From Deltaproteobacteria bacterium (GTDB lineage: Bacteria > Desulfobacterota > Syntrophia > Syntrophales > UBA5619), in the NCBI GenBank assembly GCA_026388375.1, contig JAPLJX010000101.1, positions 1 to 32,059 of the forward strand: a stretch of 32,059 nucleotides of DNA, given 5' to 3'. Both the position numbers and the translations under genes were made by a program. The notes below the pieces were generated by a model. It saw only the letters and a list, made by a program, of their open reading frames with translations. It ran no database searches and had not been told where the DNA came from. Of this stretch, positions 6,647-20,049 are shown one piece after another (within the stretch, counting starts at the first letter, position 1; each line of letters opens with the position of its first letter).

Positions 6647-9127
6647 TTACCTCAATATATTTATGGCATTTGCTATCTTCTTCTTGAACTCTGCGCTGAC
6701 GGCATCTATGTCTTCCAGACTGGTAATCACGCGGGGGGTGATCATGACGATCAGTTCCGACTTGTCTGCTGTTGTTGTCTCCGTTCCCACCAACCACCGG
6801 ATGAACGGAATGTTGATCAGCCAGGGCACGCCGGACGTTACTGCGGTCTTTGAGTCCTTGATCAGTCCTCCTATGACGATTGCCTGATTGTGTTTTACCG
6901 TCAAGGTGGTCTTGATCAGTCTTTTGTCAAAGGAAGGATACGACTTGAGGTCCACCACCATAGGTACGCCTATACTGCTTACCTCCTGGCTGATATCCAT
7001 GGTTACCAGGCCGTGCTCATTGATATGCGGCGTGACATCAAGGATCACACCGGTATTCCGGTACGCGACTTGGGTTTCCACCAGAGGCGTCGTGCTAGTC
7101 TGTATCACGTAGCTCGTGTTGGGTATGGGCACCTCTGTCGTCACATTAATGTTGGCCGGTTTATTATCGGAGGCAAGAACACTCGGGGAGGAGAGGATAT
7201 TGAGTTTGCCATCATGAGCAAGGGCATTCAGGGCAACCTGCCATTGTGCTGACAGACCTACGACGTATTGGAGACCGGCGCCGCCTATAAGGGCGGTCAG
7301 AGAAGTGGTATCGGTCCAGTCTTCTTTTTTAAAGGTCCATTGCATGCCCAATGCTTTATCCTTAGTCAGGGAAATCTCAGCGATGACAACCTCAATCAGC
7401 ACCTGTCGCGGGAGGACATCCAGACGCCCCAGAATCTTTTCAATGATCTTATAATCTCTGGGGATAGCCTCAATAACCAGGGCGTTTCGTATTGGATCTG
7501 CCGTAATCCTTATATCTCCTCGCAAGTTAGACGAGGGACCCGTTTCCGTTGCTGCCGGTGTGGCCGATGCTGCCGGTGCTGCGGTTGCTGCTGGTGCTGT
7601 CGGTGTTCCTGCTGCTGGTGTTGTTGCTGCCTTCCTCTCCATGTAACCCACGAGGAACGGATTCGTGGGCACGCTGGCCGATCCGGAACTCTTCTTGATT
7701 TCCCCCCCTTTGTTGAAAATTGATTTCAAAATTTCGCCAAGTTCCACGGCCATCCCGTTTTTAACCGAGTAGATATAGATTTGCGACTGGGCGGATTCGC
7801 TGGGGACATCCAGTTGACGGATAAATGCATCCACCCGGCCAAATACGTCGGGGCTTGAACTGATGATAAGCAGGGTATTCAACCGGTTGATGGGGATAAA
7901 CTTCACATCGTCTTTGCTGCCGCCGGCGGATAGCGATACCGCCGTGAGTAATTTCACCGCGTCATCGGTGTTGATGTTTTCAAGTGTGTAAAACCGATAG
8001 TTTAACTTCTCGAACACACTTATATCGAACACCTCCACCAGCTTCAGCACCCTAAAGATATTGATCCCCTTGTCAACCACCAGCAGGGTATTCGAACCCA
8101 CTTCCGAGATAATCGTTCCGTCAGCAGACATGAAAGGGGTTAACACCTTGGTTATCTCCGGGGCGGAGATGAATTTAAGGGGTATGATCTGGATAACAAT
8201 TCTTTCCTCGGGCGGGATATCCTTCGCCTCCCTGCCGAGCCTCATGGCAATCGGCATTCGCAAGGCATCTTTGGGTTTTATTATCCGGTAAAGGTTCCCT
8301 TCCTTGACGGCGGTCAGGCCGTTCACCTCCAGGATCTGGTAAAAGAGGGGGAAAATGTCCTCTGTCTTCAGAAGACCGGCCGTGTGGATCGTCACCTTCC
8401 CACTGACAGTCGGATCAATAATTACGTTGATTTTTAATAAATCGGCCATCGTCCTGATCACGGCATAGATGTCGGCATCGTCAAAAGCGAAGCTGATCTG
8501 GCCGGTTTTTTCAGGGGCTTTTTCCCCCGCCAATTTCTCAGACGGTCCCGGAGCGGGAACGGCCGGTTCGACCTTGAGCGCCGGCGGAGCTGCCGGCGGA
8601 GCGGGAACGGCCGGTTCGACCTTGGGCGCCGGTGGAGTGGCCGGCGGAACGGCAGGAGCTTTTACTTCCGGCGTTAGCGGAACTACGGGCACTTGCTGCC
8701 CAGGCACGGGCGCGCTCAACTCCTTTTCAGCCGGTTTTTTATCCCGCTTCACATAACCGAATGGCGTAGAGCTGATTTCAAACTTCCCTTTCTTATCTAC
8801 ATAGGTCTTCTCTACCGGTTTTTCCACCGTTCCGGCAGCTTTTACGCCACCCTCTGCTGCTCCGTCCTTTTTCTCAAGGGCAGCGACCTTCTCTACCGGC
8901 TTTTCAGCCGTCTCGGCAGCTTTTACGCCGCCCTCTGCTGCTCCGTCCTTTTTCTCAAGGGCAGCGGCCTTCTCTACCGGTTTTTCAGCCGTTTCGGCAG
9001 CTTTTACGCCACCCGCTACCTCTACCGCGACGCCTTTATCCTTGATCTGGGTTGTCGGCCCCGCGCAACCCGTAAAGGAGAAGGCAAAAAGCAGCGCGCA
9101 AAAAACGATAGCCATCGCTTGTTTCAT
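6647..9127 (-). CDS. gspD: Type II secretion system secretin GspD (lipoprotein form)
   Basis: This 826-residue protein forms the outer-membrane channel of the T2SS. It starts at MKQAMAIVFCALLFAFSF, followed by TGCAGPT, a lipoprotein-type signal peptide. Next come about 200 residues of Lys/Glu/Ala repeats and Pro/Ala-rich linker. The N0 domain begins at ISFAFDDADIYAVIRTMADL and is followed by N1-N2 repeats (ERIVIQIIPLKFISAPEITK, YSVKNGMAVELGEILKSIF). The C-terminal secretin domain includes VIGGLIKDSKTAVTSGVPWL and SELIVMITPRVI. It is the last gsp gene, 4 nt after gspC. ATG 9127 is chosen over an upstream in-frame ATG at 9217 that lies inside gspC. A lipobox suggests self-piloting as known for HxcQ. 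The linker may span the periplasm. Confidence 0.93.
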   Translation of the reverse strand: MKQAMAIVFCALLFAFSFTGCAGPTTQIKDKGVAVEVAGGVKAAETAEKPVEKAAALEKKDGAAEGGVKAAETAEKPVEKVAALEKKDGAAEGGVKAAGTVEKPVEKTYVDKKGKFEISSTPFGYVKRDKKPAEKELSAPVPGQQVPVVPLTPEVKAPAVPPATPPAPKVEPAVPAPPAAPPALKVEPAVPAPGPSEKLAGEKAPEKTGQISFAFDDADIYAVIRTMADLLKINVIIDPTVSGKVTIHTAGLLKTEDIFPLFYQILEVNGLTAVKEGNLYRIIKPKDALRMPIAMRLGREAKDIPPEERIVIQIIPLKFISAPEITKVLTPFMSADGTIISEVGSNTLLVVDKGINIFRVLKLVEVFDISVFEKLNYRFYTLENINTDDAVKLLTAVSLSAGGSKDDVKFIPINRLNTLLIISSSPDVFGRVDAFIRQLDVPSESAQSQIYIYSVKNGMAVELGEILKSIFNKGGEIKKSSGSASVPTNPFLVGYMERKAATTPAAGTPTAPAATAAPAASATPAATETGPSSNLRGDIRITADPIRNALVIEAIPRDYKIIEKILGRLDVLPRQVLIEVVIAEISLTKDKALGMQWTFKKEDWTDTTSLTALIGGAGLQYVVGLSAQWQVALNALAHDGKLNILSSPSVLASDNKPANINVTTEVPIPNTSYVIQTSTTPLVETQVAYRNTGVILDVTPHINEHGLVTMDISQEVSSIGVPMVVDLKSYPSFDKRLIKTTLTVKHNQAIVIGGLIKDSKTAVTSGVPWLINIPFIRWLVGTETTTADKSELIVMITPRVITSLEDIDAVSAEFKKKIANAINILR
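8810..9014. repeat. 81-bp tandem repeats in gspD
   Basis: Two full units (8810-8890, 8891-8971) and a half unit (8972-9014) encode a 27-residue Ala/Lys/Glu repeat (core KAAETAEKPVEK). A second, 48-bp repeat at about 8551-8645 encodes VEPAVPAP-type Pro/Ala units. Both lengthen the linker between lipid anchor and N0 without breaking frame. Confidence 0.9.
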
Positions 9128-9131
9128 ACAG

Positions 9132-9878
9132 TTATTGTACCCTTCTCTTCGTCGGTCCGAATGGCGTGTTGACGATGATATATTCTCCCGCTGCTGCTGC
9201 GTTTTTTCCTTCTGCAATAGCGGATTTTGGCTGTTCCGTGCCCGATTTCGCGGCGCCCTCGGCCACCGCTGTTCCTTTCACCGCAGTTCCTGCTGCAAAC
9301 GCCGCAGGCGCCGCTGACTTTTCTGGAACGATTATTTTTCTTGCCGGTTTATTCTTGTCATATAAAAGAATTTCACGCGTATTGGCGCCCTCGGCCAGGA
9401 TGATCCTGTCTTTTTTGATATCAGCCACATTGAATTGACCCATGGTATCGCCTACCTTTACCCATTTGTCTCTGGCCGGCTTCTTCCCGGCCTGGGGTTC
9501 GGTCTCGGGATTACTGATGAGGGCCTGTTTGTTATCACCCATTAAAACAACCCCATACAGAAAGATCATTTTCTCTGAAATTTTCAGCGGCCCTGGTTCT
9601 ACCCCTGGCCCGGGTTTTGGTTTTTCAGGAATAAACTCGGACCTGTTCGAGGAAAAGAGATTCTTCTCCGCCACTATCCCATAGGTGGATTCGGGAGGCG
9701 TTGTCCTTTCCATAACCCCTTTCCCGGGCAGGGGCTTCTCGGAACTTTTGCCGGGCTGTATCTCCTGAATCGGTTTGTTTCCTTGAGACCAGACATCAAA
9801 ACTCATTATTTCAAAGAAGACCACAAAAACCGCCAATGAAATATTAATCAGCCCTATTTTTGAAAATGCTCGAAACAT
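9132..9878 (-). CDS. gspC: Type II secretion system protein GspC-like
   Basis: This 248-residue inner-membrane protein links the cytoplasmic assembly platform to the secretin. It has an N-terminal membrane segment (IGLINISLAVFVVFFEIM), a Pro-rich stretch, and the homology-region start YGIVAEKNLFSSNRSEF. Then come FLYGVVLMGDNKQALISNP and VKVGDTMGQFNVADIKKDRI, the GspC/PilP-like beta domain. An Ala-rich linker leads to the C-terminus YIIVNTPFGPTKRRVQ. AAAGGA lies 6 nt before the chosen ATG (9878); an in-frame ATG at 9902 overlaps gspM and lacks a ribosome site. No PDZ domain is seen. A similar TPFG..KR motif occurs in GspD. Confidence 0.85.
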   Translation of the reverse strand: MFRAFSKIGLINISLAVFVVFFEIMSFDVWSQGNKPIQEIQPGKSSEKPLPGKGVMERTTPPESTYGIVAEKNLFSSNRSEFIPEKPKPGPGVEPGPLKISEKMIFLYGVVLMGDNKQALISNPETEPQAGKKPARDKWVKVGDTMGQFNVADIKKDRIILAEGANTREILLYDKNKPARKIIVPEKSAAPAAFAAGTAVKGTAVAEGAAKSGTEQPKSAIAEGKNAAAAGEYIIVNTPFGPTKRRVQ

Positions 9879-9888
9879 TGGCCATCCT

Positions 9889-10494
9889 TTACTCTTTAAC
9901 ATTTTTCATTATGCCCGAAACGGTGATCTCACACCGCATTTGCCCGGGGCTTCCGGCACCGGAAACGTTAATTCCAATCCTTTCCACTGTCAAGAAGAAT
10001 TTTGGAGACGCCTCGATCTTGTAAAGAATATCCTTCAGTTGTCTGGTTGTCACATTAACCATAAATTGGACGGGGACACTGATGTACTGGTCAGAATCCT
10101 GTTTCTGAGATTTCAGTACCTGCACACTCTTTATCTCCACACCGCTTCCGGTTGCAATTTCGTTTAAGATGTTCTGGATATCCACTGCCGCAAGGGCTAC
10201 GGTCTTTCCGGTCAAAAGCCCTGCTTCCACCCGTTCGAGAGACTTGTTAACGGAAACAAGCCTTGCCTCAAGCTCACCCCGCCCCTTAACCGTCTGCCGG
10301 TACTTTGCAACCCTCTTTTGTTGGGCGGCAATGTCCGTTCCGATACCCTGAATTCCTTCAAAAACGGGGAACAACCGGAAAGCAAGACCAAAGAGAAGTA
10401 ACACTGCCCCGGCTATTAAGATATATCTTTTCTTTTTATCAAGGATGAGTGTTGAACACTCATCCTTAAATGATTCCCAAGAGGGGATTTTCAT
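9889..10494 (-). CDS. gspM: Type II secretion system protein GspM (PilO-like)
   Basis: This 201-residue protein has one membrane segment near the N-terminus (YILIAGAVLLLFGLAFRLF), a periplasmic helical stretch with QQKRVAKYRQTVKGRGELEA, and a ferredoxin-like C-terminal domain (QFMVNVTTRQLKDILYKIEA). It partners GspL in the inner-membrane platform. The second ATG (10494) is preferred because AAGG lies 6 nt upstream of it. It sits between gspL and gspC in the operon. Confidence 0.85.
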   Translation of the reverse strand: MKIPSWESFKDECSTLILDKKKRYILIAGAVLLLFGLAFRLFPVFEGIQGIGTDIAAQQKRVAKYRQTVKGRGELEARLVSVNKSLERVEAGLLTGKTVALAAVDIQNILNEIATGSGVEIKSVQVLKSQKQDSDQYISVPVQFMVNVTTRQLKDILYKIEASPKFFLTVERIGINVSGAGSPGQMRCEITVSGIMKNVKE

Positions 10495-10526
10495 AACCAT
10501 CCTTAATTTTTCAAGCGACCAGGGTG

Positions 10527-11900
10527 TTACCTTACCTTAAACCCTATCCGAAATCTTTCCTTGCCATCCTTGCCTTTTGTGATTGGAGACAGAAAAGCCA
10601 CATCCTTTAACAGGGAAGATGCCGTAAGAAGAGGAATCAATGCCGAGGCGGAATCCGCATAACCCTCTATTTCCCCCCCCTTATCGGTAAACGCAAGTCT
10701 ATCGAGCCATACGCCTTCGGGGATTTCTTTGCTCAGATCCCGTAGAACAGTCAAAACAGGCACATGGCGCTGGCGAAGCGCATTTATAGCATCGATCTTC
10801 TTCTCTAATTCTTTCAATTTTGCCTGAGTCCGGTTAATGTTCGCAACTTCAGCGCTAAGCTTTTTGATCTCGCTGTCAAGGTTGTCGGAAAGACGTTTCT
10901 GCTGCAGGATACTGTTCCCTCCCCACGCAAGCATCGATAAGATGAAGAGACCGGCCAGGACAAACTTCGTATAATACCGAATTTTGCCGCTCTTTTTCCG
11001 AAGGCCGATAGGCAGAAGATTGATATCCATCGGCGCCTTTTGGATCCCCTTTAAGGCAAGGCCGTAGGCCGGCGCCAGGATATCCGACGGGATCCCCGTT
11101 CTGGAATGCTCCTGAGGACGGAGACCGATATCTTCCCTTGCCTTGAGCAGTTCAACGACGCTATCGGCGTCAGACCCGCACAATACAACCTCCAACCGGC
11201 CCTGCTCCGTTCCAAGTGTTTTTCGGAACAGTTCCAACTCTTCCAGGACAAGGCGCTGCAAATTGCCTCCCTTTTTATCAATTTTCACATGTCTTGAGTA
11301 ATGCAGAAGCCTTTTTTTGACGAGACTCAGTTCAAGATGTTCACTCCCCAGACTCACAATGGCATAGGTATCCGCATTCGGTGTTTTAGGTTTGTAGGAT
11401 AAGTAGTTAACCAATGCAGTGGAATGGATCTCTATCCCCGAGATTCCTGCGCCTAACCGGTTATCGCGATCAAGGTACGGATCGATAAATTCCTTTTTAA
11501 CGACTATGAGGAGAACCGTTAATTTGTTGGCTTCTTTGTCTTCGGCAATGATTTGGCAATCAAAGTAGATCTCGCTGACTGGAAGGGGTACATATTTCTC
11601 CATCTCATATAGTAAGGTTCCCCTGAGGTTTTCCTTGACGGCCAAGGGCAGTTCAATATATCTGAGTATCGTCAAATCCCGCTGTATCCCCAGAAAAATA
11701 TCCGCCGATGAAATCCGGTGCTTTCTCAGAAATTCATGGACATGCTTTCTGATTTCCGCTGTTTTTTCTTCAGAATCCTCCTTTTCAAGGGGATATATGG
11801 CGTGGGCTGCAAGGGAAAGCCCCTTGAGCGATGCTTTCAGGTATACCAGAGAAACACGGTTGCTCTCAATGTCTATGCCAACACTTGCCTGAAAGTACAA
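10527..11900 (-). CDS. gspL: Type II secretion system protein GspL (PilM-PilN fusion-like)
   Basis: This 457-residue protein recruits GspE to the membrane. The N-terminal two-thirds is an actin-like cytoplasmic domain (GIDIESNRVSLVYLKASLKG, then YEMEKYVPLP and YAIVSLGSEHLELSLV). It is followed by one membrane segment (FVLAGLFILSMLAWGG, about residue 317), a coiled-coil-prone stretch and a periplasmic PilN-like domain (EIPEGVWLDRLAFTDKGGEI). The start is a TTG: GGAGG is 6 nt before TTG 11900, giving MYFQASVGIDI, which fits the family start. The upstream TTG at 11906 directly abuts the GGAGG and is less likely. Confidence 0.88.
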   Translation of the reverse strand: MYFQASVGIDIESNRVSLVYLKASLKGLSLAAHAIYPLEKEDSEEKTAEIRKHVHEFLRKHRISSADIFLGIQRDLTILRYIELPLAVKENLRGTLLYEMEKYVPLPVSEIYFDCQIIAEDKEANKLTVLLIVVKKEFIDPYLDRDNRLGAGISGIEIHSTALVNYLSYKPKTPNADTYAIVSLGSEHLELSLVKKRLLHYSRHVKIDKKGGNLQRLVLEELELFRKTLGTEQGRLEVVLCGSDADSVVELLKAREDIGLRPQEHSRTGIPSDILAPAYGLALKGIQKAPMDINLLPIGLRKKSGKIRYYTKFVLAGLFILSMLAWGGNSILQQKRLSDNLDSEIKKLSAEVANINRTQAKLKELEKKIDAINALRQRHVPVLTVLRDLSKEIPEGVWLDRLAFTDKGGEIEGYADSASALIPLLTASSLLKDVAFLSPITKGKDGKERFRIGFKVR

Positions 11901-11950
11901 GACCAACCTCCATCCATCAATTTGCCGGGGTTAAATGTTGCCGGACATTA

Positions 11951-12967
11951 CTATTGCGATCGGTATTCAAGACCATCGATCCACTGAATGATCTCATATC
12001 CTTTTGCAAGCCTTCTATCAATTTTAACCACGGCCTGCACACCCTCCCGGGTCTGGCTATCCTTGAGCATTCCCACCGACTTGATCGTATAGTAGGGAGA
12101 CAGGCTCAACGTGATGTAGGGCGAGATTCCCGCGTATATGTCAGATCCAACAAGGAGGGACAGGTCGGTCAGTGACCGGAAATCTTTTTTTTCTCGATAT
12201 TTTATAATTGCCTGAACAACATCCTCCGTCATCCGTGGAAGAGCACGCAGCATTCGCGGCGACGCGGCATTGATGTTTATCCTGTTAAAATCAAAATTCG
12301 CTCTTATCAGGTTAGCGAGTCCCGTTTCTTTATCCTGATAAACGGCGACCATATCCTTAAGCCCGCCATCATAGAATATCCCGGGAGTTACACCCCTGAC
12401 AAAAAGCAGTTCTTCTATCGACGTAAAATCGCCATTCTTACTCTTGTAAGGTTGAGGAAGGGAAAGATAATAATCATCTTCAGCGCCATTTGGTCGACGA
12501 AGGCTGTCTTTGTCGCGCCAATCCATAATGGAATCTACGATGATATTTTTGTTGGCATCATCGATTGCAAAATTGCTCAGCATCATCTTCAGCAGGGACT
12601 CGCCGGCCCTGTTCAGGTTAACCTTTCCGCTTTCGTTTTCTCTTTCCACCTTGAATTGACCATCTCCAAAGGGAATCGCGGGGATATCGGTATTGATTCT
12701 CCACCGGATATCCTCCTGTTCCTCTTGGCCATCAGGAGCTTTCACCTTCCGGGGAACAAGCTCATTGACTACCAGTTCCCCGATAGCCATAGACAGCCCG
12801 GACACCGCAATATAATAGGTCTGCGTTTCCTCCTTGAAGTTACGGGTGATGTTTGCTTCTGTTCTTACGAAATAGCAAAACTCGCCTGCAATGACCGTGA
12901 GGAGCGCCATGACCCACAGCACAAGGAATAACGCAATGCCACGCTCACTTTTAAAAATGCGTTTCAT
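11951..12967 (-). CDS. gspK: Type II secretion system minor pseudopilin GspK
   Basis: This 338-residue protein has a prepilin-like N-terminus (SERGIALFLVLWVMALLTV) and the large GspK domain. Key segments are ESGKVNLNRAGESLLKMML, SIMDWRDKDS, DDYYLSLPQPYKSKNGDF and SIEELLFVRGV, followed by ININAASPRMLRALPRM and a helix-hairpin-helix-like region. GspK caps the pseudopilus with GspI and GspJ. It follows gspJ after 14 nt. Confidence 0.92.
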   Translation of the reverse strand: MKRIFKSERGIALFLVLWVMALLTVIAGEFCYFVRTEANITRNFKEETQTYYIAVSGLSMAIGELVVNELVPRKVKAPDGQEEQEDIRWRINTDIPAIPFGDGQFKVERENESGKVNLNRAGESLLKMMLSNFAIDDANKNIIVDSIMDWRDKDSLRRPNGAEDDYYLSLPQPYKSKNGDFTSIEELLFVRGVTPGIFYDGGLKDMVAVYQDKETGLANLIRANFDFNRININAASPRMLRALPRMTEDVVQAIIKYREKKDFRSLTDLSLLVGSDIYAGISPYITLSLSPYYTIKSVGMLKDSQTREGVQAVVKIDRRLAKGYEIIQWIDGLEYRSQ

Positions 12968-12981
12968 AAGGGCGCTACCCT

Positions 12982-13662
12982 TTACTCCCCTGCGCCTGCA
13001 ATCACATAAATGGGGGCCTTTTCGTCATTCTCCTCGAGCGTAACCCTGACCGCCCGAGGAACCCCCTTATCGACTGCCGGGTCCCAGCTTTTCTGCCACA
13101 TGGTGGATGCTTCTTCACCTGTCCGGACTTTCAAGTATTCAAACTCGATGCTTTTCATCCCGGGAATTAATTCAGAGAAATCGCCTTCGTCCGGGTTACC
13201 CGCGCCTGTCTTTTTGTCGGGCAATGCAACATTCTTCTCGTAAAATGTAAGATGCTCTTTGTCGCCATTCTTTTCCTTCTTAACGGCATATTGAACATTA
13301 ACCAGGCCAAACCGGTTGCCGGGCTCCATGGTGATATGGGATATGAACTCTATGGACTTGCTATCGCCCTTTAAGGAGACCCGTTGCTGATCCCTATCCC
13401 ACACGTCAGTCACACAGGTTGATGCCAGTTGGCGCTTGACAAGGTCCAGCACAATGCGCTGTCTCTGGCGAATGTCCACATCCTTTTCACCCTTCTCCCA
13501 TGCCCTGATGCCGATTCTCAACGCGCCGAATATGATAGCCACAATCATTGCCACTATCGTAAGAGCGATCAGCAATTCCAAAAGGGTAAAACCTCTGTTA
13601 TGACCGTTCAAGATTTTTATCCTGGTTGTTTTTACCTTACGGGCTTGCCCGGATTTAATCAT
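12982..13662 (-). CDS. gspJ: Type II secretion system minor pseudopilin GspJ
   Basis: This 226-residue protein carries the prepilin peptidase site NRGFTLLELLIALTIVAMIV, preceded by a longer basic leader of about 22 residues. The rest matches the GspJ pattern (IRAWEKGEKDVDIRQRQRIV, GMKSIEFEYL, PRAVRVTLE). It forms the pseudopilus tip with GspI and GspK. The start at 13662 is uncertain because no strong Shine-Dalgarno is visible. Confidence 0.9.
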   Translation of the reverse strand: MIKSGQARKVKTTRIKILNGHNRGFTLLELLIALTIVAMIVAIIFGALRIGIRAWEKGEKDVDIRQRQRIVLDLVKRQLASTCVTDVWDRDQQRVSLKGDSKSIEFISHITMEPGNRFGLVNVQYAVKKEKNGDKEHLTFYEKNVALPDKKTGAGNPDEGDFSELIPGMKSIEFEYLKVRTGEEASTMWQKSWDPAVDKGVPRAVRVTLEENDEKAPIYVIAGAGE

Positions 13663-13681: not shown

Positions 13682-14077
13682 TCAGAGGTTACCCTTACCC
13701 GGCTTGACCAGCTTTATTGCGCTGATCGCAAAATGTTTTTCGTGTCCATCCGCATTCCAGATGACATCCACGTTTATATTGAAAGCACGAAATGGCAATT
13801 TGACATCTTTTGCTTCTGGAATATCCAGATGCAGGGCTTCCGCTTTCCATCGGAAACCGTCGTCAAATTCACCACCAATGACCCCCTCGGTGAGTTCTCC
13901 GGCAAGGAGGATCTCATCCATCTTCTCTCTTGCATGGAATATGCCACGGGTATATTCATCCGACAATCTGCTGGATTTCAGGCCGCCGGAGAAGAGTTGT
14001 AAGATGACGACCAGAGAGATGGCAAGGATGGAAATGGCAACCAGGGTCTCTATGAGGGTGAAGCCCCTGTTTCTCAC
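13682..14077 (-). CDS. gspI: Type II secretion system minor pseudopilin GspI
   Basis: This 131-residue protein begins MRNRGFTLIETLVAISILAI, a prepilin cleavage site with the conserved Glu. It then reads SRLSDEYTRGIFHAREKMDE and has a beta-rich C-terminus ending in KLVKPGKGNL. The start is a GTG that overlaps the TAG stop of gspH by one base (TAGTG), so the two are coupled. Confidence 0.9.
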   Translation of the reverse strand: MRNRGFTLIETLVAISILAISLVVILQLFSGGLKSSRLSDEYTRGIFHAREKMDEILLAGELTEGVIGGEFDDGFRWKAEALHLDIPEAKDVKLPFRAFNINVDVIWNADGHEKHFAISAIKLVKPGKGNL

Positions 14078-14625
14078 TAACCCGTTACCTCTGAGAGCTG
14101 CACGGTCCCTGTGATAAAGTCGACATTGATTTTGTACTGTCTGCCTCGCTCATTGGCCACGGTGATTTCGCCCCCGCTGCTGCCTCCGCTGGGGAAAAAA
14201 AAGATCCTGAAGAAACCCGAATGAACATCCGTCTCCCGGGATACCCCTTTTGCAAGTTTAACCCCGTCGGGCAGATGATAAGTCTTTAATCCCTCCGGCC
14301 GGTCTTGTTCAGGGTCCGGCGGTTGTATCGGCGTGCTGTTGCCGGGATTGTTTATAGGAATATCCGCCTTTGCCGGGGAGGGATTGGTGATCACCAGTCG
14401 ATTTTTTTCGAAGTCAAACAGCGCCTCATAGGTTGTCTTTTCCGACGCGGCGCGACTCCTTGCATATCTCAGGGATGCCGAAATCTTTTTGGAGGCGGTT
14501 TTCAGATCCAGATTGCTCATGGGCCCCGCCAACTTCGGGACCACGAGGGCAGACATGAGGCTGATGATTACCAATACTACGATAAGTTCAAGAAGCGTAA
14601 AGCCTCTGTGGCGCCGGCGGTGCAT
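14077..14625 (-). CDS. gspH: Type II secretion system minor pseudopilin GspH
   Basis: This protein of about 182 residues starts near MHRRRHRGFTLLELIVVL, with the Gly/Phe cleavage site and conserved Glu. It is followed by ASKKISASLRYARSRAASEK (GspH-type helix) and a C-terminus ending KINVDFITGTVQLSEVTG. The reading frame is open further upstream but would overlap gspG, so ATG 14625 is taken. No clear ribosome site is present, and coupling with gspG is likely. Confidence 0.85.
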   Translation of the reverse strand: MHRRRHRGFTLLELIVVLVIISLMSALVVPKLAGPMSNLDLKTASKKISASLRYARSRAASEKTTYEALFDFEKNRLVITNPSPAKADIPINNPGNSTPIQPPDPEQDRPEGLKTYHLPDGVKLAKGVSRETDVHSGFFRIFFFPSGGSSGGEITVANERGRQYKINVDFITGTVQLSEVTG

Positions 14626-14644
14626 GCAAAACAGCACACTGGGG

Positions 14645-15076
14645 TTATTGTCCGATATTTGCCCAGCTCGCAATATCTGTGTCCTCGCCCTCTCCCCCTG
14701 GCCTTCCGTCAGCTCCCAGTGCAATAATGTCATAGTCTCCATGCTTGCCTGGCGATTCATATACGTATGGTTTTCCCCATGGGTCCAGAGGCACATCCTT
14801 CGGAAGATAGGGGCCATCCCACTTTTCCGCACCATCCGGTTTCACTCTGAGCGCCTGGAGTCCCTGCTCCGTTGTTGGATATTTGCCTACGTCGAGCCTG
14901 TACGTATCCAGGCTCGTTTCAAATAGCGATATCTGGGCCTTTGCAGCTTTTTGCTTGGACGTTCCCACCTTCCCAAACATGCGAGGGCCTACCAGGGAAA
15001 CCAGAAGGCCTAAAATAACCATCACAATCAAAAGTTCAATGAGTGTGAATCCCTCTTCTTTCCTTGAAATTTTCAT
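14645..15076 (-). CDS. gspG: Type II secretion system major pseudopilin GspG
   Basis: This 143-residue major subunit of the pseudopilus contains KEEGFTLIELLIVMVILGLL (prepilin site with Glu5). It then reads LDTYRLDVGKYPTTEQGLQA and LDPWGKPYVYESPGKHGDYD, the GspG C-terminal calcium-site region ending in SWANIGQ. AGAGG lies 7 nt upstream of ATG 15076, which is preferred over earlier in-frame ATGs at 15082 and 15109. Confidence 0.95.
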   Translation of the reverse strand: MKISRKEEGFTLIELLIVMVILGLLVSLVGPRMFGKVGTSKQKAAKAQISLFETSLDTYRLDVGKYPTTEQGLQALRVKPDGAEKWDGPYLPKDVPLDPWGKPYVYESPGKHGDYDIIALGADGRPGGEGEDTDIASWANIGQ

Positions 15077-15092
15077 GAACATACCTCTCCCT

Positions 15093-16322
15093 TCAAAACG
15101 GCATTTCATTCATGCTGAATATAGCCATCATCATGGATATAACGATAAAACCAACCACAACCCCCATGCCAAGAATCATGGCGGGCTCCAGAAAACTGAC
15201 CAGTCTTCTGACCGTGTCCCTTGCCACCTTCTCGTAATTTTCCGCCACCCTCAGGAGCATTTCACCCAGTCTTCCCGTTTCCTCCCCCACCGTAATCATC
15301 TGGATCGCCAGGGAAGGAAACATATCGATCTCGCCAAGAGGCCTGGAGAGCTTTTCCCCTTCCTTGACCCTCTTATAGACATTTCCAAGGGTCCCCGCAA
15401 TCACCTGGTTGCCGATAATGTCCTTAACCAGATTCAGGGCCTGCAAAATGGGAACCCCGCTCTGTGTCAGCGTTCCCAGTGTTCTTGCGAACCGGGCCAC
15501 TTCTATCTTCTTGACCAGTTCGCCGGCGATGGGAAAATGAAGTTTGTATTGGTCCAGCTTTAAACTGCCGGCAGGCGTCCTTATATACCTTCTCGTCAAA
15601 AAATAGATGACCCCCAATCCACCCAGAATGAATGGCCAGTACGTTTTTAGCGCCGCACTGAATCCCAGTAAAAACCGGGTGGATAACGGTATGGTTTGAC
15701 GCATATCGGAAAAAATAACGGAAAATTTGGGCAGCACAAAGGTTAACAGAATGATAATGGAGATACCGCCGACAAAGACGAGGAATATCGGGTAAACCAT
15801 GGCCGACTTGATATAGTCCTTGAAATCCTGGGAGCTTTCCAGAAAAGCGCCGAGCCTCTTTAGAACATCATCCAGGACACCTCCCGCTTCCCCCGCCCTG
15901 ACCATGCTCACAAAAAAAGAAGAAAACACCCGGGGATATTTTGCCAGCGCGTTCGACAGATAACTCCCCCCCTGGATACTTTTCAAAACATCTCTGATGA
16001 CATCCTTGAATCGATCCTTTTCCGCAACATCGATCAATATCGCAAGCGCCCGATCCACCGGAACTCCGGCTTCCAGCAACGTGGAAAGATCCTGTGTAAA
16101 GACCACGACATCCTTCGTGGAAACCCTGTTGAAAAAAGAAGCGACTCTCTTGGTCAGATCCATATCCGGCCCGATGCGATTTCTTGTCGCCAGGCTGATC
16201 CTTATGGGGATATATCTCATGCTCTGAAGACTGGCCACCGCTTCCTTCTCTTCTGCGGCTTCCAGGGTTCCTGTAACAAGCTTACCCGCAGGATCTGTTG
16301 CTTTGTATGAATACGTGGACAT
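15093..16322 (-). CDS. gspF: Type II secretion system inner-membrane protein GspF
   Basis: This 409-residue polytopic platform protein has two GspF domains, with VVVFTQDLSTLLEAGVPVDR and VARFARTLGTLTQSGVPILQ as the paired repeats. Membrane segments lie near residues 170-195, 225-245 and 378-400. It follows gspE with one base between stop and ATG, so it is coupled. It is predicted to contact GspE and GspL and hold the growing pseudopilus. Confidence 0.95.
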   Translation of the reverse strand: MSTYSYKATDPAGKLVTGTLEAAEEKEAVASLQSMRYIPIRISLATRNRIGPDMDLTKRVASFFNRVSTKDVVVFTQDLSTLLEAGVPVDRALAILIDVAEKDRFKDVIRDVLKSIQGGSYLSNALAKYPRVFSSFFVSMVRAGEAGGVLDDVLKRLGAFLESSQDFKDYIKSAMVYPIFLVFVGGISIIILLTFVLPKFSVIFSDMRQTIPLSTRFLLGFSAALKTYWPFILGGLGVIYFLTRRYIRTPAGSLKLDQYKLHFPIAGELVKKIEVARFARTLGTLTQSGVPILQALNLVKDIIGNQVIAGTLGNVYKRVKEGEKLSRPLGEIDMFPSLAIQMITVGEETGRLGEMLLRVAENYEKVARDTVRRLVSFLEPAMILGMGVVVGFIVISMMMAIFSMNEMPF

Positions 16323-16323
16323 G

Positions 16324-17841
16324 CTATTTTTCGAGCGTTACCCGCAACACCTCTGAGATGGTGGTGATTCCCCTTTCGACCTTATTCCAGCCATCCTGAC
16401 GCAACGTCAGTATCCCTTTCTGTAGCGCTACGTCTTTGATCCTTTCGGTGCTGGACCTCGCGGTAATTTCTCTCCTGACGTCATCATCTACTGGAAGATA
16501 CTCGAAAATTCCTATTCTTCCTCTGAACCCTGTATGGTTGCACTCTTCACACCCCTCTCCCACGAAAAACTCGATTCCGGAAATTTTATCAGGGCTTAAA
16601 TTCATCGCCTTCAAGAGCTTTTCCTCGGGCTCAACCCGTTTCTTGCAGTGAGGACAGATAACCCTGACAAGCCTTTGGGCCAGAATTCCCAAGAGCGTGG
16701 AACTAAGGAGAAAATTCTCCACACCGATATCAAGCAGTCGGGTAATGGCGCCTGCTGCGTCGTTCGTGTGCAGGGTACTGAAAAGCAGGTGACCGGTGAG
16801 AGCGGATTGAATAGCGGTCTCTGCGGTCTCTCTATCCCTTATTTCTCCGACCAGGATAATGTCGGGATCCTGGCGCACGATGGAACGAAGGCCATTCGCG
16901 AAGGTCATGCCGATTTTCGTATTAACCTGGATTTGATTAACGCCTCTTAGCTGATATTCCACCGGTTCTTCAAGCGTAATAATTTTAGTCTCCGGAGAGT
17001 TTATCTTTGCCAGGGTGGTATACAGCGTCGTCGTTTTGCCGCTGCCTGTAGGTCCGGTAACCAGTATCATCCCGTAAGGCTTTGTTATCAGCTCTACATA
17101 TTGCGGAAGCAGGTCTTCAGGAAGACCGAGCTTTTCGAGATCAAGAATTAACGCATCTCTGTCGAGTATCCTCATTACCAGGCTCTCTCCGTGGATGGTG
17201 GGCAGGGTTGAAACCCGGAAATCAATCTCTTTATCCGATACCTTGAGTTTGATTCTCCCGTCCCGAGGCAGACGTCTTTCAGCGATATCCATTTTCGCCA
17301 TGATCTTGACCCGGGAAATGACCGCGTCCTGAAGGCGGCTGGGGGGAGATTCCACATTGTGCAGGATACCGTCTATGCGATATCTTACTTTAAATTCATT
17401 TTCAAAAGGCTCAAAATGAATATCGCTGGCTCTCACCTCCACCGCATTTAAAATAAGCCGGTTGACCAGCCTGATAATCGGGGCCTCTGAAGCAAGATCC
17501 CTCAGATGGTCGGCGTCCACCACCCCATCAGAGGAGATATCATCTCTGTCTTTGCCGGCCTCCTCTATGATCGTTTCCAGAGACTGACTTCCCGTGCCAT
17601 ACAATCTCTCGATAGCCCCAATGATGTCCTCCTCCCTGCCCGGACATACCTCTATGTTCAAGTTGCAGGCGAGCTTGAGGGTATCTATGGTGTAAAAGTC
17701 CCCCGGATCCGCCATGGCAATTCTCAGAGTATCGCCATCCAGCTGCAAGGGAACAAACCTGGACTGCTTCATAAACAGAACGGAAAGATTGCCGATGACC
17801 ACCGGTTTCTCGGGGTATTCCTGAAAAGATATGTCCGCCAT
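16324..17841 (-). CDS. gspE: Type II secretion system ATPase GspE
   Basis: This 505-residue cytoplasmic motor powers pseudopilus growth. An N1E/MshEN-like region at residues 1-90 leads to the N2 domain (ASDIHFEPFENEFKVRYRID). Walker A is GPTGSGKT at 263-270, and the Asp/Walker B region is DPDIILVGEIRDRE from 325. The His-box segment is STLHTNDA, and the zinc site is CPHC (396-399) with CEEC (431-434). The start lies 1 nt after the beta-propeller gene's stop. It heads the gsp order E-F-G-H-I-J-K-L-M-C-D. Confidence 0.96.
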   Translation of the reverse strand: MADISFQEYPEKPVVIGNLSVLFMKQSRFVPLQLDGDTLRIAMADPGDFYTIDTLKLACNLNIEVCPGREEDIIGAIERLYGTGSQSLETIIEEAGKDRDDISSDGVVDADHLRDLASEAPIIRLVNRLILNAVEVRASDIHFEPFENEFKVRYRIDGILHNVESPPSRLQDAVISRVKIMAKMDIAERRLPRDGRIKLKVSDKEIDFRVSTLPTIHGESLVMRILDRDALILDLEKLGLPEDLLPQYVELITKPYGMILVTGPTGSGKTTTLYTTLAKINSPETKIITLEEPVEYQLRGVNQIQVNTKIGMTFANGLRSIVRQDPDIILVGEIRDRETAETAIQSALTGHLLFSTLHTNDAAGAITRLLDIGVENFLLSSTLLGILAQRLVRVICPHCKKRVEPEEKLLKAMNLSPDKISGIEFFVGEGCEECNHTGFRGRIGIFEYLPVDDDVRREITARSSTERIKDVALQKGILTLRQDGWNKVERGITTISEVLRVTLEK

Positions 17842-17842
17842 T

Positions 17843-19504
17843 TTATCTTTTTACCTTAAAAAGGAAAGCAACCTTTTTTCTTCCTGCGATGATGATCAAA
17901 CCCAATCCTAAAATCAACGCGAGATGAGACGGATATTGGACAAAATATACCACCGGCGTCAGAAGCCACCTTGTTGGCGCTCTCAGGGAACTATGTTCTC
18001 TGATAAAGTCGGCAATGGGCGGTGAATATTTATAATAGACAGCGACCATTGCCGCGCCCCCCGCATGGGAAAGAAGATACTGATCTCTAAATGTCCTTAA
18101 TACCCGAACATGAATATCATCATACGAGCCGTAAACCGCCGTCGCGATAAAACAGGACCCGTCGCTTTTTTCTGATGTTGTGAAACTCCAGGTGTTGTTG
18201 GAAGCAAGGGCATTCCCCATCGCATTCCTTATGCCTGTCGTAAGGGTGACCGTGTAGGTGGTTTTTTTTGAAAGGTCAATGAGAGGTTTGAATGTGGCAA
18301 TTTTATTAACACTGTTATACGTCACGGTGCCCGTTACCCCCCCGCTCATCAGAAATGTCGAACCACTGATCGTCGCTGCATCCATGATATCAGAAAAGGT
18401 AGCCTGAATTATCGTACCCAGGGAAACGTCTGTGGCAGCGTTCGCCGGTATCGTAGACGTGACGGTCGGAACGGTTTTTCCAAAGGGGGCGACAAAAGAA
18501 CCCAGAGCATACGGCATTGCCCCGACTTTTATCCGCGGCAGTTTTTCGGTATTGATTGAATTGTCGATAACGGAAACAGTGCCGTCAAAACTGCTTATAA
18601 CATAGGTGAACATCCCCTCCATGCTCAGCGACACACCAATGGGATTTATTCCAACGCCAATGTTCGGGCTGCTAAAAGTATTGCTGTTCGCATCAAAAAA
18701 GGAAACGGTTCCGCTGCTGAAATTCGTGATATAGACGGGCGTTCCCGTGGGATTAACCGCCACCCCCGAAGGGGTTGCCAAATGAAAATCCAATTTTGTT
18801 ATTAGCGAATTGTCCGCTGTCTTTATAACAGAAATTGAATTCCCGCCTGTATTTGTGACGTAGACGAAGGTACCCGCGGGATTGACGGCGGCGCCGAAGG
18901 GATTGTTGCCCACCGCGACCGTAATGATATTGGTGTTGTCGGCAGCGCTGATGACGGAAACGGTACCGCTCGAGCTATTAACCGCATAGATTTTGGAGCC
19001 GTCAGGGCTTACGACTATGCCTATCGGATTGGAACCAACGGGAATTGTTGCCGTGACGGAATAATTACCGAGGTCGATTTTCGAGACCGAGCCACCTCCG
19101 GAGTTTGTGACATATGCAAATGTTCCCGCCGGGTCAACCGCTATCCCATAAGGATTCCTGCCTACGCTGATGTCTCGAACCTTCTCGAAAACAACATTGG
19201 TGGTTAAAGCGTCACTGAAGGTTCGGATGACCGACACATTATCGCTTCCAAAATTTGTTATAAAAGTCAATGTTTCTGAAGTCTTCCCCACTGACGCCAC
19301 ACCACGGGGATTCGTTCCTGCAAGAACGGTTGCCGCAACACGGGGAGGATTGGTCGCTGTGTCAATCACTGAAACGTTATTATTGTCGGAATTGGGTATG
19401 TAGGCAAAGGGGGCGGCGTCTAGGATGGAGTACGATCCCAATCCGAATAGCATGAATACACTCAGACAGATAACCAGATTCCCCTTATTCCCCTTTTTTT
19501 TCAT
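17843..19504 (-). CDS. Secreted YVTN beta-propeller protein with Ig-like domain and CFI-box C-terminus
   Basis: This 553-residue exported protein has a signal peptide (MKKKGNKGNLVICLSVFMLF onward, to about residue 30). It then has seven or so YVTN/NHL-type blades with repeated motifs such as FAYVTNSGGGSVSKID and YVTNTGGNSISVI (residues about 30-335). A bacterial Ig-like domain follows (PANAATDVSLGTIIQATFSD). The C-terminal module begins CFIATAVYGSYDD and ends with a hydrophobic segment (LALILGLGLIIIAG) and basic tail. That C-terminus matches the CFI-box type seen on surface proteins of deltaproteobacteria. AAGGGGG lies 6 nt before ATG 19504. The stop is one base from gspE, so it is probably co-transcribed and a candidate cargo. 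Confidence 0.85.
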   Translation of the reverse strand: MKKKGNKGNLVICLSVFMLFGLGSYSILDAAPFAYIPNSDNNNVSVIDTATNPPRVAATVLAGTNPRGVASVGKTSETLTFITNFGSDNVSVIRTFSDALTTNVVFEKVRDISVGRNPYGIAVDPAGTFAYVTNSGGGSVSKIDLGNYSVTATIPVGSNPIGIVVSPDGSKIYAVNSSSGTVSVISAADNTNIITVAVGNNPFGAAVNPAGTFVYVTNTGGNSISVIKTADNSLITKLDFHLATPSGVAVNPTGTPVYITNFSSGTVSFFDANSNTFSSPNIGVGINPIGVSLSMEGMFTYVISSFDGTVSVIDNSINTEKLPRIKVGAMPYALGSFVAPFGKTVPTVTSTIPANAATDVSLGTIIQATFSDIMDAATISGSTFLMSGGVTGTVTYNSVNKIATFKPLIDLSKKTTYTVTLTTGIRNAMGNALASNNTWSFTTSEKSDGSCFIATAVYGSYDDIHVRVLRTFRDQYLLSHAGGAAMVAVYYKYSPPIADFIREHSSLRAPTRWLLTPVVYFVQYPSHLALILGLGLIIIAGRKKVAFLFKVKR

Positions 19505-19641: not shown

Positions 19642-20049
19642 TTATAACCTGTTGCCGCTTTGGTCCTGTTCATCGGAAGGGAAACCGCTCTCCCGCACCT
19701 CTTCCCGCAACTGCTGTATCTCCGTCGGCAACCGTTCATACTCCCGGATCTTCTTCTTGAGAAAGAGATAGGTCGTTCGGGTTTTTTCCTCGGCGCCCGC
19801 AGGGGTCAGGTAATAGAGGTAGGCGCTTTTGCTGCTGGATTTCCTGAAATTCTCCACCTTCACGAACCCCCTCTCGATCAGGGTTTTAATAAGGAAATTG
19901 ACCTTGCCGAGGCTGATCCCCAGCCGGGAGGAAAGTCCACGCTGGGTCATCTCGGGAGATTTGTCGATCTCCCGGAAGATCCGGAGCATCTCCTCGTTTT
20001 CGAGTTGGTCGGGCGGTTGAACGGACATCCTTGACTCCATATCGTTCAT
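19642..20049 (-). CDS. MarR-type EPS-associated transcriptional regulator
   Basis: This 135-residue winged-helix protein reads LRIFREIDKSPEMTQRGLSS, then RLGISLGKVNFLIKTLIERG (the recognition helix region), and KVENFRKSSSKSAYLYYLTP. A C-terminal coiled coil carries KKKIREYERLPTEIQQL. This pattern fits the MarR-family EPS-associated regulators found in exopolysaccharide loci. It lies between the glycosyltransferases and the secretion operon on the same strand. A TTGACT lies on the minus strand at 20090-20095, but no convincing -10 follows. Start 20049 is used; a second ATG is four codons later. Confidence 0.8.
   Translation of the reverse strand: MNDMESRMSVQPPDQLENEEMLRIFREIDKSPEMTQRGLSSRLGISLGKVNFLIKTLIERGFVKVENFRKSSSKSAYLYYLTPAGAEEKTRTTYLFLKKKIREYERLPTEIQQLREEVRESGFPSDEQDQSGNRL

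Follow-up and report, generated by a model that had tools for sequence, protein, structure and literature searches.

The propeller gene and the secretion operon behind it

The stretch analysed here (the window) comprises 32,059 nucleotides of contig JAPLJX010000101.1 (assembly GCA_026388375.1) from a Deltaproteobacteria bacterium of the Syntrophales lineage UBA5619, and carries a gene for an exported-type propeller protein, ending in a CFI-box and a hydrophobic helix, directly ahead of the type II secretion system (T2SS) operon of which the protein is plausibly a dedicated client. In the labels used below, G000 is the window genome, with G numbers denoting genomes, L numbers individual loci and f numbers families. 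The propeller gene (17843–19504, minus strand) encodes 553 residues, with an N-terminus (MKKKGNKG) that by eye resembles a Sec signal peptide, followed by YVTN propeller repeats, a Big_5 Ig-like domain, the CFI-box, and a C-terminal hydrophobic helix with a basic tail. NCBIfam scans find seven YVTN stretches (TIGR02276, 156 bits) and make the protein a member of CFI_box_CTERM (NF041770, residues 451–519, 99.1 bits against a cut-off of 40), with Pfam placing Big_5 at residues 343–443. The CFI-box covers 69 model positions (17948–18154, minus strand), and the tail behind it (17846–17947, minus strand) passes from a hydrophobic stretch into a basic end: LALILGLGLIIIAGRKKVAFLFKVKR. An earlier note on this DNA had described just such an ending, and had placed the stop codon one base before the gspE start; the reading frame coordinates and domain scans confirm both, with the single base 17842 separating the stop from the ATG at 17841. 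Given this spacing, co-translation of the propeller gene with gspE is likely, and an AAGG stretch within the last codons of the propeller gene could, judged by eye, act as the gspE ribosome site.

The genes behind the propeller gene lie on the same minus strand in the order gspE, F, G, H, I, J, K, L, M, C, D, and form a complete T2SS operon. The ATPase gene gspE (16324–17841; TIGR02533, 658.6 bits) and the major pseudopilin gene gspG (14645–15109; TIGR01710, 172.3 bits) score over their cut-offs, with gspF (15093–16322; TIGR02120, 414.7 bits, cut-off 424) and the gspK-like minor pseudopilin gene (11951–12967; NF037980, 91.7 bits, cut-off 130) under theirs. The remaining minor pseudopilin genes are gspH-like (14077–14835; XpsH/GspH models under cut-off, start of the frame probably too far 5′), gspI-like (13682–14077; NCBIfam scan and orthologue search), and gspJ-like (12982–13662; NCBIfam scan). 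Orthology with the related genome G015 identifies the PilM-like gspL (10527–11906, also found by family scan), the gspM (9889–10500) and gspC (9132–9902) positions, both from G015 alone, and the gspD secretin gene (6647–9217; 826 aligned residues, start of the frame probably too far 5′).

The earlier note had the propeller gene leading the operon, which stands for the gsp genes, among which it is first. As for the transcript, the gene 137 bp upstream on the same strand encodes a MarR family EPS-associated regulator (MarR_EPS, 19642–20049, minus strand; TIGR04176, 136.6 bits), so that the propeller gene is perhaps not first there, and is only a candidate for that place. Promoter- and terminator-like sites between 16200 and 20300 do not exceed chance (3 found compared with 3.7 expected, and 5 compared with 4.4).

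Searching the 21 genomes of the family with the window GspI reveals this type of operon in three, namely G000, G002 (GspI identity 88%), and G015 (67%), with the remaining family matches at 38% or below. MarR_EPS lies upstream of the operon in all three, and the CFI-propeller gene is present in two (G000 and G015). G015 retains the order MarR, CFI-propeller, gspE to gspD, with 65% identity between the propeller proteins, 86.5% between the GspE proteins, and four bases between the two genes. G002 has a gspE of 93% identity along with the other gsp genes, and its interval from MarR to gspE is only ~300 bases (L039, G002:C239, about 12860–13190), within which a remnant aligns with the start of the propeller gene, a short internal stretch, and the start of gspE. 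This remnant reads as a deletion scar left by the loss of the CFI-propeller gene from an otherwise intact T2SS locus; since G002 lost the gene and kept the T2SS, the machine can evidently do without the CFI protein.

CFI genes at other T2SS operons and within pseudopilins

Matches to CFI occur in 109 of 395 genomes of the phylum (over cut-off in 96), and at several loci a CFI gene stands at the head of a T2SS operon; these next-gene relations were read locus by locus, an automatic count having missed overlapping frames. At L105, a metalloprotease-like protein with CFI (MXAN_6640 model, 41 bits, under the cut-off of 140) is followed after 2 bp by GspC (Pfam T2SSC, over cut-off) and then D, E, F and G, with L086 showing the same layout and 176 bp between the CFI gene and GspC. 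At L098, a subtilase (Pfam, 202.5 bits) with CFI lies 131 bp ahead of gspF, with gspG and further genes through to L and D behind it, and delta-60 propellers with CFI lie 18 bp (L124) and 54 bp (L127) ahead of gspG to D, the L127 propeller being called by eye from its likeness to the L124 protein, with its repeats not scanned. At L084, 1.1 kb separates a 2511-residue DUF11/isopeptide-repeat protein with CFI from the gspF behind it, and an opposite-strand frame is called in this gap. Across the window and these loci the cargo varies, as does the gsp gene that comes first (gspE, C, F or G), and the CFI tail is what they share. A CFI gene adjoins gspE in G015 as it does in the window; elsewhere T2SS neighbours recur, and the gene that comes next differs.

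CFI genes are also found in other surroundings. At L051 (G055:C48) and L052, CFI proteins lie near cohesin and carboxypeptidase-regulatory-like repeat proteins, with the L051 protein located 3′ of a gspD–gspE cluster (gspD/E were seen in L051 only). Four tandem CFI genes occur at L097 (4089–12127), each ending right after the domain with no helix, and tandem CFI genes are likewise present at L179, L215, L232, and L186.

GspK was used as the marker for linkage across the phylum because it is more T2SS-specific than loose gsp/pil models, with the 202 CFI matches listed in 112 genomes compared with 119 GspK matches of at least 60 bits, on the same contig and within 10 kb (genome sizes rounded). 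Among the CFI matches listed, 14 of 202 have a GspK match in this range compared with 1.36 expected; 13 of the 14 share the gspK strand, 12 have CFI 5′ of gspK, and 12 remain once the window and G015 are set aside. The links extend over seven GTDB families (Poisson P = 5e-4 against 1.36 expected), and the same-strand 5′ layout over five (P = 3e-5 against 0.34, or 4e-4 without the window’s family), these P values being rough, as they assume random gene placement. GspK over cut-off is found in 55 of 86 CFI-listed genomes compared with 86 of 309 others, a comparison confounded by shared descent, with the 309 including some weaker or unlisted CFI genomes. The conservation of the linkage, on which the earlier note had staked its reading, is borne out: the CFI–T2SS linkage is conserved and goes beyond a local accident, although it is not obligatory and covers a minority of CFI genes.

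The decisive new evidence for a tie between CFI and the T2SS comes from fusions of CFI to pseudopilins and prepilins. At L118 (G175, f35), one 936-residue reading frame comprises delta-60 repeats, CFI, a helix, and a complete GspG (TIGR01710, 177.9 bits, cut-off 88.85; Pfam T2SSG, 141 bits), the same parts being split over two genes in its relatives L124 and L127. A prepilin, CFI, a helix, and a second pilin-like part are joined in L122, L130, L132, L257, L259, and L260, and an L122 query running from CFI to the second pilin spans both halves in seven of the 395 genomes (G076, G364, G188, G400, G033, G025, and G095, with the G025 locus, L261, counted from the match span alone). The second half of these large fusions gives no GspK match in an NCBIfam scan, and is PilX/GspK-like by eye only. 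In G382 (L262) the halves are separate adjacent matches, the first a prepilin ending in CFI, a helix, and KRRSP, and L110 (228 residues) and L113 (210 residues) encode short prepilins with CFI at the end.

A prepilin motif is present in 7 of 115 CFI proteins, and within the first 60 residues in 6 of 115, compared with 6 of 688 genes of control regions (Fisher p 0.003). The class III prepilin signal is recognised by TIGR02532 (over 16.3 bits) in L110, L113, L118, L122, L130, and L132, and by Pfam N_methyl in L113, L118, L122, L130, L132, and L262. The predicted structure of the G382 prepilin–CFI protein (mean pLDDT 69, 7 sequences) opens with a long helix, followed by a beta-sheet domain and the CFI bundle, and closes with a further helix. 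At E ≤ 0.001, Foldseek matches this model to five chains and no others, all from the T2SS pseudopilin pairs XcpV/XcpW and EpsI/EpsJ (E values 5e-5 to 4e-4); we take these chains to be the J subunits, and the model thus points to a pseudopilin fold of the GspJ type.

These architectures also bear on topology. Prepilin leaders are cleaved at the cytoplasmic face of the membrane, and in L118 and the large fusions, a leader that must stay cytoplasmic comes after the CFI helix, so the helix should run from periplasm to cytoplasm. CFI should likewise lie outside in L110 and L113, since it comes after the pilin domain. The basic end of the window tail, if cytoplasmic, agrees with this out-to-in orientation. 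In L130 and L132, a sigma-factor-like gene (ECF cluster; Pfam was run on the L112 member) and further prepilin genes lie upstream of the fusion gene, and in L107 and L115 the reading frame runs on past CFI and its helix into a domain that by eye resembles a beta-barrel of the outer membrane and carries a signal-like stretch of its own. L134 was dropped as an example of CFI, its reading frame crossing a masked run.

The CFI domain and candidate processing enzymes

Despite the naming of NF041770 as a C-terminal domain, CFI is also found inside fused prepilins and before GspG, and a literature search of PMC for CFI-box or NF041770 found no paper. AlphaFold2 modelling of the window CFI piece (111 residues, 111 sequences) yields a confident helical model (mean pLDDT 89.7) with five helices, in which the CFI motif opens the first helix and the last (residues 83–110) is the hydrophobic tail. 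Cys1 and Phe2 are kept in all 85 CFI-domain rows with a residue there (86 rows were found by the model), and Arg23, Gly33, and Tyr40 in 86 of 86. With ~70 residues and scattered invariant positions, CFI looks more like a folded domain than a cutting or recognition motif. A fold search with the model gave four matches at E ≤ 10 and none at E ≤ 0.001 (best VIA-align Z 3.8), and a PDB sequence search with the domain gave nothing convincing. A distant CFI-like domain (CFITTATIETLGKG...) following a beta-helix-like region at L135 (9693–12206) suggests a wider CFI superfamily.

In 8 of 80 loci chosen by likeness to the window’s tail (a set that is not random, with L208 a repeat of L117), CFI comes soon after a PilQ-like secretin (L176, L185, L198, L208, L210, L218, L219, and L233); these are mostly Geobacterales, several having PilM/N-like genes before the secretin, and they suggest that CFI is tied broadly to type IV filament machines. 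All-against-all clustering of CFI-gene neighbours in 158 loci revealed no general partner enzyme. Its most recurrent families were a PilQ-like secretin cluster, near CFI in nine loci and in one control, a 448-aa family that controls contain just as often (nine loci near CFI and eight controls) and that was rejected as a partner, and a 198-aa family of no name and no Pfam match, seen in eight loci near CFI and no controls; other neighbours scanned include a tRNA pseudouridine synthase, a GAF histidine kinase, an ECF sigma factor, a DUF4124 protein, and a DsbC_N protein.

To the earlier note the CFI ending looked like a sorting signal, perhaps cleaved during or after export. On such an account, a protease or transpeptidase of the membrane, in some lineages of the exosortase type, would cut the ending made up of CFI, helix and basic tail and anchor the protein, with the T2SS carrying out export. 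The signal-peptide-like start and hydrophobic and basic end of the window protein fit this account, as does the MarR_EPS gene that precedes it. So do loci in which an exosortase-type gene adjoins the CFI gene (L057, L060, L061, L066, and L246), the two being tail to tail with ~25–37 bp between their stops in L057, L060, L066, and L246; the L057 and L246 exosortases, the only two scanned against NCBIfam, belong to no named class. The PEP-CTERM regulators PrsK and PrsR are encoded beside CFI in L057 (where PrsK is under cut-off and both lie on the opposite side of CFI from the exosortase) and L242, and PrsK does so in L203. Exosortases score over cut-off in 29 of 56 CFI genomes, including a single one in G000 (C56, 132.5 bits), and with adjoining genes in those five loci only, exosortase fails as a general CFI partner, though it is a candidate processing enzyme in some lineages. 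Rhombosortase is ruled out as a general partner, with no match over cut-off in any of the 56. The window genome G000 has that one exosortase and one other CFI protein, and no rhombosortase match. This sole other CFI protein (C478, L047) has 741 aa and a weak metalloprotease match, and comes after a 1008-aa lactonase-propeller/phosphoesterase-type protein.

Known C-terminal sorting systems offer precedents for this account. GlyGly-CTERM proteins such as VesB of Vibrio cholerae make use of the T2SS after processing (PMC6219818), and MYXO-CTERM proteins, which are processed as well, are predicted to do so (PMC11980579). The window protein shares with the GlyGly-CTERM/rhombosortase system (PMC6219818) a signal-peptide-like start, a hydrophobic and basic C-terminal end, and a T2SS link, but its tail by eye lacks a Gly/Ser motif and CFI is a helical domain of 69 positions, in genomes of which none of the 56 has a rhombosortase over cut-off. 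The MYXO-CTERM/myxosortase system (PMC11980579) resembles it in its invariant Cys, helix, basic cytoplasmic tail, and predicted T2SS use; there, however, Cys sits in a short motif beside the helix, whereas the CFI Cys is ~75 residues ahead of it (residue 9 of the modelled piece, compared with a last helix from residue 83). The helix and basic tail, together with exosortase, PrsK and PrsR neighbours at some CFI loci, recall PEP-CTERM/exosortase systems (PMC1569441), but no exosortase is detected at E ≤ 0.001 in 26 of 56 CFI genomes, and by eye residues 451–553 of the window protein contain no PEP motif. The folded-domain character of CFI, the want of a generally recurring enzyme, and a helix that is not always present (see below) speak against CFI as a cleaved sorting signal, which we consider unlikely.

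A proposed tether for secreted cargo

We favour instead the reading that the propeller protein is a dedicated T2SS client, with CFI and its helix acting as an inner-membrane tether or hand-over module, to which as a whole we assign a probability of about one half. The protein would be co-translated with the secretion machinery encoded behind its gene and exported by Sec, and CFI, as a periplasmic helical domain, would together with the C-terminal helix and basic tail keep it at the inner membrane, close to the secretion platform. Once engaged there by the pseudopilus, the tethered protein would finally reach the cell surface or the surrounding medium, with its tail cut or still tethered. As unrelated proteases, propellers, and pseudopilins (GspG and the GspJ-like prepilin) carry or adjoin CFI, the domain may be a general tether or hand-over module of T2SS and type IV filament machines. 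The dedicated secretion link suggested in the earlier note accordingly gains from the order kept in G015, the CFI-headed operons elsewhere, and the pseudopilin fusions, but is not obligatory.

Several observations weigh against this reading. No CFI match occurs anywhere in G002, where the T2SS is kept without any CFI protein, a GspK match is absent from 8 of the 86 CFI-listed genomes of the phylum sample, and 188 of the 202 CFI matches listed are not within 10 kb of one. Six of the 14 GspK links come from one family, f35, which limits their independence. Using loose models built from the gsp proteins of the window and its relatives, a gsp/pil-like gene within ~10 kb was found at 15 of 80 CFI loci (drawn from the listed matches, mostly one per genome, avoiding contig ends where possible) compared with 6 of 40 regions picked at random in 14 of these genomes (Fisher p 0.80); with no enrichment, this test was dropped in favour of GspK positions. 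Of 112 CFI proteins, 85 have a helix over the hydropathy threshold behind the domain and 27 lack one, and four short CFI proteins (L126, L128, L129, and L133) look cytosolic, with no signal peptide or prepilin motif, so that CFI may also be active inside cells.

Two further explanations have been weighed. CFI proteins might be inner-membrane accessory parts (scaffold, regulator, or tip partner) of T2SS and type IV pilus machines rather than cargo, as their fusion to GspG and GspJ-like prepilins and their position within operons, with gaps of 1–2 bp, would allow; outside CFI the proteins are nevertheless unrelated (propellers, subtilase, DUF11/isopeptide repeats), the G002 operon survives the loss of the gene, and most CFI genes lie elsewhere, making this improbable. 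Least probable of all is that shared regulation or hitch-hiking of surface genes brought together the T2SS and a general helical domain with no secretion role, which would suit the unenriched loose control, the many unlinked CFI genes, and the cytosolic-looking and distant versions (including L135), but would leave the same-strand 5′ bias in several families and the in-frame fusions hard to explain.

The tether reading has a partial parallel in T2SS loci that encode a cargo of their own, such as pul/PulA and Hxc/LapA. The window resembles these in having cargo encoded beside its machine, and differs in that a single tail domain is shared by various cargo proteins and occurs in fusions with pseudopilins as well. 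A bolder and rather doubtful extension would make CFI a transferable recognition and tethering module through which cargo is handed to the pseudopilus tip, with some lineages having built the module into the tip and major pseudopilins themselves, so that cargo and pseudopilus share a docking domain. It has long been asked how the T2SS selects its folded substrates, which share no common signal, and CFI, found on varied cargo at the heads of T2SS operons and fused in frame to pseudopilins, offers a concrete handle on this, as it would predict which proteins are T2SS clients, with the fusion points suggesting the site of hand-over. If the extension is true, the shared docking domain would be a visible signal for substrate choice.

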